NCBI RefSeq assembly: GCF_027000115.1
Contig: NZ_JALTON010000055.1
Coordinates: 1-36,837 of the forward strand
DNA from: Thiohalobacter sp.
Lineage (GTDB): Bacteria > Pseudomonadota > Gammaproteobacteria > Thiohalobacterales > Thiohalobacteraceae
Reading direction: 5' to 3'
DNA: 36,837 bases
Shown here: positions 1,193 through 33,178 of the stretch, piece by piece
Position numbering within the stretch: the first letter of the stretch is position 1
Layout: each line of letters opens with the position of its first letter
The notes under the pieces: model-generated
Seen by the model: only the letters and a program-made list of their open reading frames with translations
Databases searched by the model: none
What the model was told of the DNA's origin: nothing
Made by a program: the position numbers and the translations under genes

Positions 1193-1981
1193 TCAGCGCC
1201 GACGCAGGCGCATCACGCCCAGCCCGGCCGCCAGCAGGGCCAGCGTGCCCGGCTCCGGGATGCCGCTGGGCGGCGCGCCGACGCGACCGCCGAGCGCGGA
1301 GAGCTTGAAGAAGTCATTGCCGGTCGACCAGTTCTTGCTGGAGACGAAGGGATTGAAGGCGCTGACCAGCCACAGGCTCGAGCTGTAGCCGCCGCCGTTG
1401 ACCGACACCGTCTTGCCCGGCTGCTGGGCGACATTGCTGTAATCGCCGGCATGGGCCCAGCCCTGGCTCAGCAACTGGCTGTAGTCGAGATTGCCGAGAT
1501 AGTCGCTGTCGCCGGCGTTGAGCGGATCGCCGCTGCCGGTGTAGGCCAGCAGGCTGATATCTGAATCGTAGCCGCTGCTGCTGCCCGGCCAGCCGATCTG
1601 CAGGCTGTCCAGGGTCACCAGGCTGGTGCCGAAGTCGATGAGCACGGCGTCGATGTAGCCACTGTTGTCGGCGGCGTGGTTGGGGACCGATCCGCTTTCC
1701 GCCGCGTTCTTCACGCCGATGCCCGACCACAGGGCCACTGCCGAGGACCGGAGGCGTCCGGCGCGACCCGTGTTGGAGATGCCACTTACCGTGACGTTAC
1801 CCTGCCCGGTCGGCGAGCTGAACACCATGGTGTCGCCGTAGACGCCGGTGCTGCTGCAGGCGCCGGAGACGCAGTTGGCGGTGCTGAACACCCAGTCGAA
1901 GGCGGCGTGGGCCGGCAGGCTGGCTGCGAGGGTCAGGGTGGCGACGCCGGCGAGGCGGCGGATGACATGTTTTCTGGTCAT
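1193..1981 (-). CDS. PEP-CTERM exosortase-target surface protein
   Basis: A 262-residue exported protein. An N-terminal signal peptide (charged MTRKHVIRRLAG, hydrophobic core, AHA cleavage region) is followed by a Ser/Gly/Asp-rich body with one Cys pair (CVSGAC). The C-terminus is a textbook PEP-CTERM sorting signal: IPEPGTLALLAAGLG, then the basic tail RLRRR. Such proteins are processed by exosortase (EpsH/XrtA family) at the inner membrane and displayed on the surface or in the exopolysaccharide matrix. The body, with DSDISLLAY and a DFGTSLVTLDSL segment, resembles exosortase-dependent proteins of the XDP1 type; this is from memory of the family and is uncertain. The start at 1981 is chosen because the signal peptide follows directly; upstream in-frame starts only add an arginine-rich leader. 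It sits behind a sigma-54-like promoter and next to prsT. Confidence 0.92.
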   Translation of the reverse strand: MTRKHVIRRLAGVATLTLAASLPAHAAFDWVFSTANCVSGACSSTGVYGDTMVFSSPTGQGNVTVSGISNTGRAGRLRSSAVALWSGIGVKNAAESGSVPNHAADNSGYIDAVLIDFGTSLVTLDSLQIGWPGSSSGYDSDISLLAYTGSGDPLNAGDSDYLGNLDYSQLLSQGWAHAGDYSNVAQQPGKTVSVNGGGYSSSLWLVSAFNPFVSSKNWSTGNDFFKLSALGGRVGAPPSGIPEPGTLALLAAGLGVMRLRRR

Positions 1982-2068
1982 GGCACTGTTCCCGATGGTC
2001 GGAGTTCGTGGGCGCGGCCGCTGCAGGCGGTCGCTGGGCCTCTCCCGGGCCTTCCATGCCAACAGACT

Positions 2069-2173: not shown

Positions 2174-4981
2174 TCAGGGCGCGGGCCGGCCCAGCCGCTT
2201 CCGGGCATCGTCACGCCCCGGGAAAGGCTGGTCGCTTGCGAGCGCCGCGCGGTATTCGGCGCGCGCCTCGTCCATCCGTCCCAGCGCCTCCAGCGCCCGA
2301 CCGAGGTGGTAACGGATGTCGGGCAGGTCGGCCCGGCGGGCGTGCGCCTGGCGCAGCGGCGCCAGTGCCCGTTCCGGCTGGCCGGCTTCCACCAGCGCCC
2401 AGCCCAGCGTATCCAGGTAGCGCGGGTCCTCGGGCCGGAAGGCCACCGCGCGTTCGGCCAGGGCGCGCGCCGCATCGGCCTCGCCGAGCAGGAGGCGGAC
2501 CGTGGCGAGGTTGTTGAGCAGCCGCGGGTCGTCGGGATGGTGTTCGAGCAGGCGCTCGAGCTGGGCCGCCGCGCCTGCGTGGTCGCCTTCCGCGAACAGG
2601 GCCTCGGCCAGCACCAGTCGCGCGTCGTCTGCCTGCGGATGTCGTGTCACCCAGTCGGCCAGCCAGCGCCGCGCGGCTGCGGATCCCTGTGCCGCAGTCA
2701 GCGCCCGGTACAGTGCCAGCGCGTTGCGGGCGTCGTCACGCAGGCCAAGTGCGCGGCGCAGATGCCTCACTGCGGCGGCACGCTCGCCGCCGGCAAGCTC
2801 GGCAAGACCGAGCGCCCGCAGCAGGTCCGGGTCCTCCGGTGCCCGTTTCCGCAGTTCGCGGGCCAGGCGCAGGGCGGGCGCGACGCGTCCGGCGGCGAGC
2901 CGGTAGTCGATCAGCTGCAGGGCCGCCGGACCCATTTCCGGCGGGTCCCCCACCTGTCTTTCCAGCGACCAGATGGCACCGGCAAGATCGCCGATGGCGG
3001 CCTGGCGGCGGGCGACCTCCTGCAGGCCGGTTCCGGTGACGGCGCGTGACAGGCGCTCCAGGGTGGCGCGGGCAGCCGCCGTGTCGCCACCGGCAGCCTG
3101 CACGTCGGCCTGTGCCAGGTTCAGTTCGACGTCATCGGGATGGCTGCGCAAGGCCCGGGCCAGTGCCCGGCCCGCTGCCTCGACCTCGCCCCGTGCGAGC
3201 CGGAACCGCGCCAGCGCCACCGCCGTATCCGGCCGGGTCTCGTCCAGCGCGAAGGCCTTTTCCAGCAGCCGCCCGGCGGTGCCGGTATCCTTCTCGGCCA
3301 GCGCGATGCGGCTGCGCTCGACCAGCAGGCCGGGATGCTCGGCGTGGGTCGCCAGCAGGCGGTCGATGCGGGCACGGGCAACGTCGGCATGCCCGGCCGC
3401 CAGATCCAGCCGGGCGAGATTGATATGGGCCGGGACGAACTCGGCGTCAAGCGCCAGCGCTGCCTCGAAGGCCTTGCGGGCGGAGGCGGCATCGCCGCGG
3501 GCAAGCCGCGCGACGCCGGCGAGATTGTGCACCAGCGGATGCGTCGGGTAATCGTCGACGAGTGCACGGGCGGTGGCGTCGGCATCCTCGAGGGCGCCGG
3601 TACGCAGCTCGAGCACCAGCCGCAACAGCCGCGCCTGCAGGCTGTCCGGCGCCGGCCCCGCCTTCGGCCGCAGATCGAGCAGTGCGCTGTCGATCCTGCC
3701 CTGCGCCAGGTGATACAGGGCCAGGCGTTCGCGGGCGCGGCCGAACCCGGCGCCGGCGGCCTTGGTCAGCAGCTCGGCCGCGGAAGCCTCCCGACCCGTC
3801 GCGAGATAGGCGCTGCCCAGCAGGGTCAGGAGTTCCGGGTCGCTCTGCCCCTCGCGCAGTGCGGGCTCCAGTACCGCCACGGCATCGTGCGGCCGCTGCT
3901 GCCGCAGCCGGAGCTGCCCCAACAGCTTGCGCGCGCCCAGGTGGCGGGGATGACTGCCGAGGTAGCGCTGGAGTTCGGCCTCGGCACGGCCGAACTCGCC
4001 CAGGCTGTAATGGACCACACCGGCCAGCAGGGTGGCCGCCGGCCGCGTGGCCAGCGCCTTTGGCGGGATGCGCTGGAAGATGGCGCCCGCCTCCTTGAGC
4101 GCCGCGAGTGCACGGTCGGAATCGCCAAGGCGGTTGAGCACCACGGCGCGCAGATACTGGACGCGGGGCTCGGCCGGCTGCGCTTCGGCCAGCCGGTCGA
4201 GGGCTTCCAGTGCGGCGTCGAGGCGACCGGTGTCGATGTCCAGGGTGATGCGGGCAAAGCGCACCGCGTCGAACTCGGGCTGCAGCTCAAGGGCGGTGTC
4301 GTAGGCGTGTGCCGCCCCCCCGGCGTCGCCGCGGGTATGCAGCACAGTGCCGAGCAGGTACCAGGCGGGCGCGTGCTTGCCGTCGCGGGCGACAGCGGCC
4401 CGGGCCAGCGCCTCGGCGCCTTCGGTGTCGCCCAGCGCCAGCCGCGCCCGGGCACGTCCCAGCAGGGGGGCGAGCGCGGTGGCATCGCGGCGCTCCGCTT
4501 CCGCATAGCTGGCCTCGGCCTCGGCGGCCCGGTCGAGGGCGAGCAGGGCGTCACCGCGCAGGCTCAGCAATTCGCTCGCCAGGCCCTCTGGGTAGTCCTT
4601 CGGATCGAAATCATCGAGGACGGCCTGGTAGCGCTCCTGCATGATCAGGGCCGTGGCCAGCGGCACCGCGATCAGACTGGGGTCGGCACCCATGTCCGCG
4701 GCCTTGCGCAACTGCTTCTCGGCGCCCGCCGCATCGCCGGCACGCAGGTAGGCACGCCCCAGCAGCACCTGGCCCGGCAGATGCCCGGGGGACTCCAGCA
4801 GCAGGTTCTTGAGCTGGATGGTCGCGGTGGCGACATCCCCGCGCTCGAAGGCGCCGAGGGCCGACTCGTAGCGCTGTTGTGCCGCGTCCGCTCGCGCAAC
4901 GGTCGGCAGCGCCGACAGCGAAAGCAGGCAGAGGATGATCGGAAAGGACGGCAGGCGCATGGGCAACGGGCGTTGGATCAT
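2174..4981 (-). CDS. prsT: PEP-CTERM system TPR-repeat protein PrsT
   Basis: A protein of about 935 residues built almost entirely of tetratricopeptide-like repeats behind an N-terminal signal sequence (MRLPSFPIILCLLSLSA, cleavage near VARA). Length, architecture and the opening (ADAAQQRYESALGAFERGD, then LLLESPGHLPGQVLLGRAYL) match PrsT, the large TPR protein that accompanies exosortase and exopolysaccharide loci. It is thought to act in the periplasm in assembly or export of the EPS/PEP-CTERM system. No lipobox Cys is evident at the expected cleavage site; the only early Cys (in LCLLSL) lies in the hydrophobic core. Possible starts are 4981 (MIQRP) or 4960 (MRLPS); neither has a strong ribosome site, and upstream in-frame extension is not signal-like. 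It follows pirin by about 50 bases and precedes a PEP-CTERM target gene. The exosortase and glycosyltransferase genes that often surround prsT are not in this window. Confidence 0.88.
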   Translation of the reverse strand: MIQRPLPMRLPSFPIILCLLSLSALPTVARADAAQQRYESALGAFERGDVATATIQLKNLLLESPGHLPGQVLLGRAYLRAGDAAGAEKQLRKAADMGADPSLIAVPLATALIMQERYQAVLDDFDPKDYPEGLASELLSLRGDALLALDRAAEAEASYAEAERRDATALAPLLGRARARLALGDTEGAEALARAAVARDGKHAPAWYLLGTVLHTRGDAGGAAHAYDTALELQPEFDAVRFARITLDIDTGRLDAALEALDRLAEAQPAEPRVQYLRAVVLNRLGDSDRALAALKEAGAIFQRIPPKALATRPAATLLAGVVHYSLGEFGRAEAELQRYLGSHPRHLGARKLLGQLRLRQQRPHDAVAVLEPALREGQSDPELLTLLGSAYLATGREASAAELLTKAAGAGFGRARERLALYHLAQGRIDSALLDLRPKAGPAPDSLQARLLRLVLELRTGALEDADATARALVDDYPTHPLVHNLAGVARLARGDAASARKAFEAALALDAEFVPAHINLARLDLAAGHADVARARIDRLLATHAEHPGLLVERSRIALAEKDTGTAGRLLEKAFALDETRPDTAVALARFRLARGEVEAAGRALARALRSHPDDVELNLAQADVQAAGGDTAAARATLERLSRAVTGTGLQEVARRQAAIGDLAGAIWSLERQVGDPPEMGPAALQLIDYRLAAGRVAPALRLARELRKRAPEDPDLLRALGLAELAGGERAAAVRHLRRALGLRDDARNALALYRALTAAQGSAAARRWLADWVTRHPQADDARLVLAEALFAEGDHAGAAAQLERLLEHHPDDPRLLNNLATVRLLLGEADAARALAERAVAFRPEDPRYLDTLGWALVEAGQPERALAPLRQAHARRADLPDIRYHLGRALEALGRMDEARAEYRAALASDQPFPGRDDARKRLGRPAP

Positions 4982-5030
4982 GAATGTCCGCAGTATGCCA
5001 CAGCGCCCGGTCCCCCCTTCAGTCCACCCC

Positions 5031-5756
5031 TCAATCCACATAGGACCCGTGCTGATGGATGGCTTCGCCATGGGGCCGGCCGAAGGCCAGCATCAGGCGC
5101 GAGGGGTGGCAGGCCTCGATATCGAGCGGTGTGGCCTTCGGCAGGAACAGCGCTTGAGCTTCAGCGAGCGGATGACCGTTGACCTCGGCCGCGCCCTGGA
5201 CCAGATACACCAGGCCGCGGAAACCCGGCGGTGGTGAGTGGCGGTAATGCCCGCCGGAATCGAGCGCGAGGTCCAGGTACTCGACCGGGGTGTGCAGGCG
5301 CAGTGGCGACCCCGCGCCGACGATGGTGCGCAGCCGGCCATCTGTCAGCGCGCGGTCGGGCAGGGCGTCGGCGTCCACCTGCTGGTAGTCGGGCGGCAGC
5401 GACTTCAGCCGTTGCGGCAGGTTGATCCAGAGCTGGATGCCGCGGGCACCGCCGACCGGCATCTCCGAGTGGCGGATGCCGCGGCCGGCGGTGAAGCGCT
5501 GGGCGCCACCGGCATGCACCACCGAGCGGTTGCCGAGATTGTCGGCGTGTTCCATGCCGCCGTCGAACAGGTAGGTGATGGCCTCGAAGCCGCGGTGCGG
5601 GTGCTCGGGGAAGCCGGTGCCGGCCTCGATGGCGAAATGGTCCCAGAGCACGAAGGGGTCGTGGTGGCGACAGTGCACCACCGGGAACAGGCGCCGCACC
5701 ACCACCCCGGCGCCCTCCATCGTCTCCACGGCGTCCTGCACGAGTTCGTGGTCCAT
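5031..5756 (-). CDS. Pirin family protein (bicupin)
   Basis: A 241-residue cytosolic bicupin. The N-terminal cupin has the pirin metal site (HPHRGFEAITYLFDGG with two His; later RHSEMP supplies His and Glu), followed by GIQLWINLP typical of the family. Bacterial pirins include quercetin 2,3-dioxygenases and redox-responsive regulators; the specific role cannot be assigned. The start at 5756 is supported by an upstream GGAGG; the longer frame upstream is arginine/proline-rich and overlaps the divergent gene. The C-terminal cupin (residues about 140-240) keeps the fold signature LDIEACHPSRLML. It is divergent from the SEC-C protein across a 62-base intergenic region. Confidence 0.9.
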   Translation of the reverse strand: MDHELVQDAVETMEGAGVVVRRLFPVVHCRHHDPFVLWDHFAIEAGTGFPEHPHRGFEAITYLFDGGMEHADNLGNRSVVHAGGAQRFTAGRGIRHSEMPVGGARGIQLWINLPQRLKSLPPDYQQVDADALPDRALTDGRLRTIVGAGSPLRLHTPVEYLDLALDSGGHYRHSPPPGFRGLVYLVQGAAEVNGHPLAEAQALFLPKATPLDIEACHPSRLMLAFGRPHGEAIHQHGSYVD

Positions 5757-11705: not shown

Positions 11706-11832
11706 TCCGGCCCGCCGCGAATTCACCCTCACCCGCAGTCGTCGCTGCCCTAAGCGATGCCGCATGAGCGTCCGCCGCGCGGCGTTCGGCAGGCACGAAG
11801 CGCGCCCTGGCGGCGTGTCCGCAAGCGCTCTG

Positions 11833-11859
11833 TCAAGTTCGCGGAAGGCCGGCCGATAG
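11833..11859 (+). promoter_or_regulatory. Sigma-28 (FliA) promoter
   Basis: TCAAGTTC (11833-11840), an 11-base spacer, then GCCGATAG (11852-11859). The FliA consensus is TAAAGTTT-N11-GCCGATAA, so the -10 matches 7 of 8, the -35 6 of 8, and the spacing is exact. It lies 56 bases before the ATG at 11916 on the same strand, in an otherwise empty intergenic region. Confidence 0.8.
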
Positions 11860-11915
11860 CCTGGCGGAGGCAGGAACACCTCACCGTCCAGCGCATCCCA
11901 CAGGGAGGTATCGAC

Positions 11916-13109
11916 ATGCAGACCGAAAACGCGCCCGCACTCCAGGCACAGGCCACGCCGGCCCGGGATCAGGCAGCCGCTTCCCTGCGCCCGGCAGCCA
12001 ACAACAGAACAGAGCCCGCAAACACCACCGGCTCGGGTGTTGTGTCCGATACAGTCAGCGTATCCGCATCAGGGCAAACACTGGCGCTGGGGGCCGCCGG
12101 GAGCATCGTCCGCCAACGCAGCACATCGGTGACGATAGAGACCCGGCAAGGCGACCGTATCCGTCTCGACATCCAGGCGCTCGCCCGTCTCGACACCGCA
12201 GCCGTCACGGCCACCGACGGGACACAGGGCCTGGCGCGCGCGGCCGTAGCGAGCCGGTCCGGGTTGTCCCTGCAGTTCAGCGTGGAGGGTACGCTGGATC
12301 GCAGGGAACTCAAGTCACTCGCCCGGGTTCTGCATTACGTCGAAGAGGCAGCCGAAGAATTCTACGAGGGAGATGCAGCCGAGGCGCTCAAGAAACTCGG
12401 AGGAATGAAGGTCGACCCGAACGTGCTGGCCGGGGTGTCCGTGGATTTCCAGCGCAGCGCCGCCGTTCGCTATGCCGAAATCCAGCGGCTGGCTGATGAA
12501 CCCGCGTCCGCATTGCCCACGGATTCCCGACCGCCTGCCGCCTCGCAGACCGGGACCGCGGCCGTGTCCCGCCCGGCGCCGACCGGTTCCGACAGGCCGG
12601 CCAGCGCGATGCCTGCGCCCGAGACCTCGTCGGGTGTCTCCGGCCCCGGCCGCCTGTTCCCGGACCCCGCCGGTGGCTCGCAGCGAACCCCGATCGTGCC
12701 GTCCCAGGCCAGCCCGGTTGCCCGTCTTGCAACAGCCGTCCGCAGCAGTCTGGACCTCGGCACCGAAAGTGGACTGTTCCAGTCCCCCGAAACCGGCGTG
12801 AAGGATCTGTTCCGTGCCGTGTTCGACCTGGTCGCCGGGCTCCGAGGAGACGACGAAGGCGAGGACGAGAAAGGGCTTCCAGCCCTACTGGACAGCCTGC
12901 TCGAAATCCTGACCAGTGCGGGCGGGGCCGAGGCGCGTGATGCCGAGGACCATGGCATGGCCGCTGCCCCTGAATCCGAAGAGGGTGACGCGGTGACGGT
13001 CGACTCCGAGCATGATGCGGACGACGTGGTCGCGTCCCCGGCTACAGCGGCGACATCTGACACGCGCCCGGACAGGGATGCCGTATCGTTCACCCCGTCC
13101 GCCGCATGA
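11916..13109 (+). CDS. Uncharacterised protein, probable FliA regulon member
   Basis: A 397-residue protein that I do not recognise with certainty. Residues 1-60 are Ala/Thr-rich and disordered without a signal peptide. Residues about 60-200 are a folded region: a beta stretch with SVTIETRQGDRIRLDIQ and LQFSVEGTLDRRELKSLARVL, then helices with HYVEEAAEEFYEGDAAEALKKLG. This order resembles the DUF5610-type domain, a tentative assignment from memory. Residues 205-300 are Pro/Ser-rich, and the tail is very acidic (DDEGEDEKG, EHDADD). The start at 11916 has a strong AGGGAGGT ribosome site 6 bases upstream. The FliA-type promoter suggests late expression with flagellin, motor or chemotaxis genes. 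The last codons and stop (GCCGCATGA) fall in an imperfect hairpin made of a solitary MITE end. Confidence 0.8.
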   Translation: MQTENAPALQAQATPARDQAAASLRPAANNRTEPANTTGSGVVSDTVSVSASGQTLALGAAGSIVRQRSTSVTIETRQGDRIRLDIQALARLDTAAVTATDGTQGLARAAVASRSGLSLQFSVEGTLDRRELKSLARVLHYVEEAAEEFYEGDAAEALKKLGGMKVDPNVLAGVSVDFQRSAAVRYAEIQRLADEPASALPTDSRPPAASQTGTAAVSRPAPTGSDRPASAMPAPETSSGVSGPGRLFPDPAGGSQRTPIVPSQASPVARLATAVRSSLDLGTESGLFQSPETGVKDLFRAVFDLVAGLRGDDEGEDEKGLPALLDSLLEILTSAGGAEARDAEDHGMAAAPESEEGDAVTVDSEHDADDVVASPATAATSDTRPDRDAVSFTPSAA

Positions 13110-13138
13110 CCAAGACCCGCCTTGGCGCAATATGCGGG
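13102..13138. repeat. Solitary MITE end forming a hairpin at a gene's stop codon
   Basis: GGCGCAATATGCGGG at 13124-13138 equals the terminal repeat of the MITE-like family. CCGCAT (13102-13107) and CCAAG (13110-13114) pair with its complementary bases to give an imperfect hairpin around ACCCG. The stop codon of the 11916 gene lies inside the left arm. Only the terminal repeat is present; no core sequence is seen. Confidence 0.6.
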
Positions 13139-13211
13139 CTGACGGCGGCTGCACCAGGCCGCCATTCCCCAATATCCCGTACCCATGAGGCAACATGGGC
13201 TCCGGGCGCTC

Positions 13212-29796: not shown

Positions 29797-30047
29797 CCCG
29801 CATAGTGCACCAGGGGCTGCGGATGATGGCGGATTTGCAGCCGGGCTCGGGGGATGCTGGAGCGAAAGCCGTAGCCGTCGCTACGGCTTGAGTGAAGCAC
29901 CCCCGAGGCCGAGCGAAAATCCGCCAGGGCCGCAGCAGGCCGCGGGCGGGCACACATCGTACGGGCCGTGGGCAAAAAACCCGGTTCATTGCTTGCCAAC
30001 ACAACAAGTTGCCTGCCGCCCGCTTCCGCCCTGGTGCAATATGCGGG
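29797..30047 (+). repeat. Complete long MITE-like element (251 bp)
   Basis: The left end CCCGCATAGTGCACCAGGG and the right end CCCTGGTGCAATATGCGGG are inverted copies with one mismatch; TTAA flanks both sides (29793-29796 and 30048-30051), extending the match to 22 of 23. Inside, 29833 to about 29928 fold into a long imperfect hairpin: GCGGATTT and AAATCCGC at the base, AGCCGTAGC-CGTC-GCTACGGCT at the tip. The core that follows is shared with 1-184 and, inverted, with 33040-33178. No ORF for a transposase is present, so it would be mobilised in trans. TTAA could be a target duplication or part of the terminal repeat. Confidence 0.85.
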
Positions 30048-30258
30048 TTAATGCAGCGGCAAAATGGACGCTATATATTTTAGTCGTCTCACAATTGTCT
30101 GAACATGGAAGCCCTGTCTCGTAGGATGGGCAAAGGCGCGCAGACAATGGCCCAGCCCTTGGCAAGAGCCACAACGCAGTGCAGGGGCTTTCTCTGCATC
30201 CTGAACACGACATATTGGGTTGCCGGGTTAAAAATAGACCAATCCAAGCGGGGTGGAC
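30048..30258. other. Non-coding region between MITE and hypothetical gene
   Basis: No supported gene. It includes an AT-rich patch (CTATATATTTTAG at about 30070-30083). It also holds GTAGGATGGGCAAAGG near 30121-30136, which resembles one half of a repeat common in gammaproteobacteria; this is from memory and unconfirmed. The stretch TTAAAAATAG lies just upstream of the next gene. No promoter can be fixed with confidence. Confidence 0.5.
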
Positions 30259-33039: not shown

Positions 33040-33178
33040 CCCGCATATTGCACCCGGGGGAAGCGGGCGGCAGGCAACTTGTTGTCCTGGCGGGCAATGA
33101 ACCGGGTTTCCTGCCCATGGCCCGCAGTCCAACTCGTACCCGCCCGTATCCTGCTGCGGCCCCGGCGCAATATGCGGG
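33040..33178 (-). repeat. Complete short MITE-like element (139 bp), inverted
   Basis: The ends are CCCGCATATTGCACCC on the left and GGCGCAATATGCGGG on the right, inverted copies of each other with minor mismatch. The interior is the reverse complement of the core in 1-184 and 29797-30047; for example TTGTTGTCCTGGCGGGCAAT matches exactly with the first copy. The internal hairpin of the long copies is absent: the right terminal repeat joins directly to the GCAGCAGG-equivalent base. Flanks are TAA on the left and CTGA on the right, so no exact target duplication is visible. Confidence 0.82.

Follow-up and report, generated by a model that had tools for sequence, protein, structure and literature searches.

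The question raised by this locus is whether a solitary gene for an uncharacterised protein, lying behind what appears to be a promoter for the flagellar sigma factor FliA (sigma-28), belongs to the late flagellar regulon and, if so, what its product might do. The gene encodes 397 amino acids (11916-13109, + strand) and lies in the 36,837-nucleotide stretch of a Thiohalobacter sp. contig that was analysed here (the window). The predicted promoter occupies 11833-11859 on the same strand as the ORF, the orientation given in the initial annotation, and ends 56 nt before the ATG. Read on the sense strand as TCAAGTTC-GCGGAAGGCCG-GCCGATAG, it consists of a -35 element TCAAGTTC and a -10 element GCCGATAG separated by exactly 11 nt, and it carries 13 of the 16 bases of the consensus TAAAGTTT-N11-GCCGATAA. 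The match had been called almost perfect, which holds for the spacing and is slightly generous for a box with three mismatches in 16. The ATG at 11916 is preceded by the Shine-Dalgarno sequence GGGAGG (region AGGGAGGT, 11902-11909, + strand), and the stop codon ends at 13109. An alternative in-frame ATG at 11757 would place the box within the gene; the start at 11916 is preferred because the Shine-Dalgarno sequence and the homologues favour it. A scan of both strands of the window revealed no second match with three or fewer mismatches (chance expectation 0.03), a shuffle test confined to the 300-nt region before the ATG returned p = 0.001 for the box, and no sigma-70-type promoter was found upstream of the gene. 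Taken alone, the window box is suggestive, about three-quarters convincing, rather than proof.

The gene was described as isolated from flagellar loci, and we agree: as read from ORF sequence only, it is flanked by an RNase D-like gene upstream and a convergent ABC permease gene downstream. The window genome does encode fliA and a flagellin, whose box has two mismatches, and FliA-like boxes elsewhere in the genome precede fliC, flgM, a PilZ gene, and an HD-GYP gene (names read from sequence, with a profile test for the flagellin only). In total, 16 sites with three or fewer mismatches were found in this genome as compared to four for a reversed control pattern, so that about one quarter of the sites may be due to chance. 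One further box, matching at 14 of 16 positions, overlaps the flgB start codon and its ribosome-binding site (L001:1501-1526; G000:C2:42466-42491, - strand) and could be a secondary promoter or a coincidence. These counts bear on the possibility that the window box is itself a chance match or inactive, the gene being read from another promoter and unrelated to flagella; its three mismatches, the four control sites of equal quality, and the similar match at flgB would all fit. In E. coli, over half of the FliA-bound sites are intragenic, and most of those are without detectable RNA (ChIP-seq, PMC4183435). Unproductive binding of this kind is answered here by the conservation of the box at orthologues, for which the family first has to be defined.

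The protein contains a domain at residues ∼60-188 (12093-12479, + strand) that is conserved in the alignments. An AlphaFold2 model (pLDDT about 80-94) predicts three long beta strands for it, then a helical hairpin followed by a fourth strand. A linker rich in Pro, Ser, Ala, and Thr follows (residues 191-275, 12486-12740, + strand; 59% PSTA), and the remainder (residues 276-397, 12741-13106, + strand) combines short predicted helices with an acidic C-terminal tail, with 29 Asp/Glu vs 8 Lys/Arg. The model, which starts after residue 59, assigns low confidence to the linker and tail; in the model of a full-length relative the first 31 residues are also of low confidence, and the N-terminus of the window protein is probably disordered. 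Inspection revealed no signal peptide. The predicted layout of a folded helical/beta middle, a disordered Pro/Ser region, and an acidic tail on a protein lacking a signal peptide is thus borne out. Pfam and NCBIfam scans of the whole protein returned zero matches, and no model in either collection covers the middle domain. A PDB structure search with the domain gave no convincing chain, which does not show a new fold; usher barrels were considered and rejected, as the best VIA Z was only 4.9 and reflected long-strand geometry only.

A contig scan with the window protein as single query detected no relatives. The wider search used a five-sequence alignment as the contig-scan query and profiles against 369 genomes of the class, plus named genomes. 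Three homologues were found in the order of the window organism, in genomes G002 (44% identity), G004, and G005, and the window domain matches the family alignment over ∼130 residues (E = 3.2e-24) with invariant T..GD, G.L..E, and F..G positions. In most homologues this domain is the C-terminal neighbour of Pfam DUF5610 (PF18433) within one protein, the common architecture being a disordered N-terminus, the helical DUF5610, the window's domain, and a variable tail. In the G004 draft contig, a frame change separates the homologous domain from an upstream frame that matches DUF5610 (E = 5.9e-26). The PF18433 profile matches neither the window protein nor anything else in the window genome, and no DUF5610 was detected in the nearest relative either. 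Proteins with the domain and no DUF5610 are those of the window, G002, L017, and L023, while DUF5610-only proteins occur in Rheinheimera and at L134-L139. The window protein thus belongs, as a divergent member, to a family of Gammaproteobacteria that normally joins DUF5610 to a beta-rich domain, and it has only the second. It shares a promoter type and the absence of Cys with the PF18433 family, whose function is unknown, and differs from it in that neither it nor its nearest relative has a detectable DUF5610. In genome G201 (contigs C13 and C14; L023 and L103) the two domains, fused elsewhere, are encoded by separate genes, each with its own FliA-like box of one to two mismatches. PDB sequence searches with whole-length profiles yielded nothing beyond designed helical proteins and chance hits. 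In one relative, the DUF5610 half is similar to PDB 3SJR (VIA Z 10.4, rmsd 2.9 over 84 residues; profile E = 0.0022), an experimental structure of a protein of unknown function, CV_1783 of Chromobacterium violaceum, that is distantly related to DUF5610, although 3SJR spans only DUF5610, the domain that the window protein does not have.

The promoter was then sought at these loci, a check that had been proposed with the initial annotation. Among 58 upstream regions of 300 nt, a sense-strand FliA box was found at 32 with p ≤ 0.01 and at 38 with p ≤ 0.05 (shuffle p), as compared to none of the 58 on the reverse strand. Since the loci are related to one another, the counts do not represent independent events. 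The three nearest homologues have boxes with three to four mismatches, and boxes also precede distant homologues in Nitrincola, Stutzerimonas, Marinobacterium, Rheinheimera, and Methylococcaceae. The box is perfect (16/16) at L028 and L052 (a Nitrincola MAG) and has one mismatch at L029, L044, L050, L055, L058, L066, and L069. At nearly all loci having a good box (three or fewer mismatches), it is the single best match on both strands of ∼12 kb. About a third of the family loci have no significant box. A clade of MAGs with a weak consensus retains a ATAAAGAA...AGACGCTAATA element amid diverged DNA, which we infer to be a clade-specific variant of the box. A variant promoter ATAAAGAAAA...AGACGCTAATA is conserved upstream of L030, L031, L033, L035, L039, L041, L042, and L065, possibly representing a lineage-specific sigma-28 preference. 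The DUF5610-only genes L135, L136, L138, L139, and L144 have no recognisable box though their genomes carry fliA; with several DUF5610-only genes of flagellated genomes lacking a box, it is the form carrying the second domain that shows the strongest conservation of the promoter. Sense-only boxes at the same place in nearest and distant homologues speak against a chance or inactive box, which we consider highly improbable.

The distribution of the family points in the same direction. Of the 369 class genomes, 31 carry the family and 208 encode FliA above the curated cut-off. FliA is present in 26 of the 31 carriers vs 182 of the 338 non-carriers (Fisher p = 0.0008, phylogeny ignored; p = 0.002 without two weak hits), so the suggested phylogenetic profile against flagella also came out in favour of the link, and this co-occurrence is again at odds with a chance box. 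Three of the five fliA-negative carriers (G223, G230, and G242, all draft genomes) still encode flagellins, while the other two, G325 and G063, have no FliA and no flagellin. In G325 a stop and a frame change interrupt the family copy. G063, a complete genome, keeps an intact DUF5610-only gene, L102 (G063:C1:977375-977746); it has no box, and its protein has one Cys and one Trp. The DUF5610-only proteins clearly read from flagellated genomes contain no Cys, and a single Trp occurs among them, in L103. Taken together, the box, its conservation at orthologues, and the co-occurrence with fliA support the proposal of a candidate late flagellar regulon member, and we consider it very likely that transcription of the window gene is FliA-dependent.

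Sigma-28 control could merely time expression to motile cells for a product with a non-flagellar role, as for modA and flxA, the E. coli precedents for such regulon passengers. An isolated, unlinked gene in diverse neighbourhoods and a patchy spread (31/369 genomes) would suit a passenger, and the patchy distribution means that the family is therefore not essential for motility in general. The decay of the gene in G325, whose lineage lacks both FliA and flagellin, argues against a passenger, as does the flagellin-like composition of the family, and we regard this explanation as unlikely.

That composition bears on the fate of the product. The 59 family proteins contain three Cys in 22,477 residues (0.013%) vs 1.1% in 239 long ORFs of the same loci; these three occupy position 4 or 15, and in two cases the start codon assumed is a doubtful GTG. 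Trp makes up 0.14% of the family vs 1.35% of the neighbouring ORFs, and the flagellins compared have 0.00% Cys and 0.20% Trp. This near-total absence of Cys together with low, flagellin-like Trp is a new observation for the family of DUF5610 and its companion domain. It is a signature of export substrates rather than proof of export, and low Cys and Trp could be due to something else. The Pfam and NCBIfam scans placed none of the domains of known export substrates (flagellin, FlgM, FliK, FliD, and FlgK/L) in the window protein. A FlgM-like N-terminus was considered and set aside (p = 0.76 in the window protein, and not general in the family).

The main rival to export is a FliA-driven protein that stays in the cytoplasm as an accessory protein serving the motor, chemotaxis, or the cell pole. 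E. coli YcgR, YhjH, and Aer, which are made with the late genes, set the precedent, and the same promoter evidence applies to such a protein. FliA-like boxes of the window genome also precede the PilZ and HD-GYP genes, but these cytoplasmic proteins do contain Cys, whereas Cys and Trp are almost absent across the 59 family proteins. A CZB-type soluble chemoreceptor gene directly precedes the family gene in two sister genomes only, G004 and G005; against this, no neighbour is conserved across lineages at the family loci. We therefore see a cytoplasmic accessory as possible but doubtful. The initial annotation had offered the chemotaxis regulon as a second option, for which the adjacency in G004 and G005 speaks weakly; a Pfam scan found no MCP, Che, or PilZ domain in the window protein.

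Our preferred reading, to which we assign a probability of roughly 55%, is that the window gene is a FliA-driven late gene whose product is exported through the flagellar type III apparatus. FliA-RNA polymerase is freed after completion of the hook-basal body and export of FlgM. It would then transcribe the window gene from the 11833-11859 box as a single-gene late (class III/IV) transcription unit, and the product would be exported unfolded via the flagellar type III apparatus and act on or outside the flagellum. Export is favoured because Cys is near-absent, Trp is as scarce as in flagellins, there is no signal peptide, and the N-terminus is probably disordered; a folded, Cys- and Trp-poor protein without a signal peptide would be made together with flagellin. 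Points that weigh against this reading are the three mismatches of the box, the family loci without a significant box, the lack of a conserved neighbour or of a flagellar gene cluster at the locus, the lack of a match to known substrate families, and the intact DUF5610-only gene of non-flagellated G063. Taken by itself, export through the flagellar apparatus stands at close to even odds. Because relatives in many motile Gammaproteobacteria share the promoter and lack cysteine, the gene probably encodes a late flagellar protein that has so far gone unrecognised. More tentatively, DUF5610 and its companion domain may form an unrecognised class of late flagellar proteins in many Gammaproteobacteria that are FliA-made, cysteine-free, exported, and modular (fused, or split as in G201), and that decorate or leave the filament.

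The window gene resembles the E. coli FliA class III genes (fliC, flgM, tsr, aer, ycgR, and yhjH) in promoter type, spacing, and position, but no sequence relation to them was found, and FliA control is here a prediction. The sigma-28-dependent secreted non-flagellar proteins of Campylobacter (FspA and the Fed group) are likewise encoded by late-regulon genes outside flagellar clusters, with flagellar export a candidate here; the likeness concerns regulation and gene location. A literature search found no paper mentioning DUF5610, though subscription journals or naming by locus tag could hide one, and the titles and abstracts of FliA regulon studies, as distinct from their every table, list no DUF5610 gene. 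The analysis would assign this uncharacterised Pfam family to the late flagellar regulon and offer flagellar export as a directly testable mechanism. If correct, many motile Gammaproteobacteria, including Pseudomonas and Stutzerimonas species, possess a late flagellar component that work on E. coli could not have brought to light, since the E. coli control genome has no DUF5610 match.

Two other features of the window were observed. A dispersed repeat of ∼110-190 bp ending in GCAATATGCGGGCTA occurs at 1-187, 29867-30050, and 33056-33167, two copies being direct (89-97% alike) and one inverted (86%), and a short repeat-like piece, cgcaatatgcgggct, lies near 13128-13145, just 3' of the window gene; the repeat resembles a small, non-coding element of mobile or REP-like type. 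The ORF at 1193-2062 (- strand) has a signal-like N-terminus and a C-terminal ...GIPEPGTLALLAAGLGVMRLRRR that looks like a PEP-CTERM sorting signal, and it adjoins a gene for a 965-aa TPR-repeat protein at 2174-5071 (- strand).
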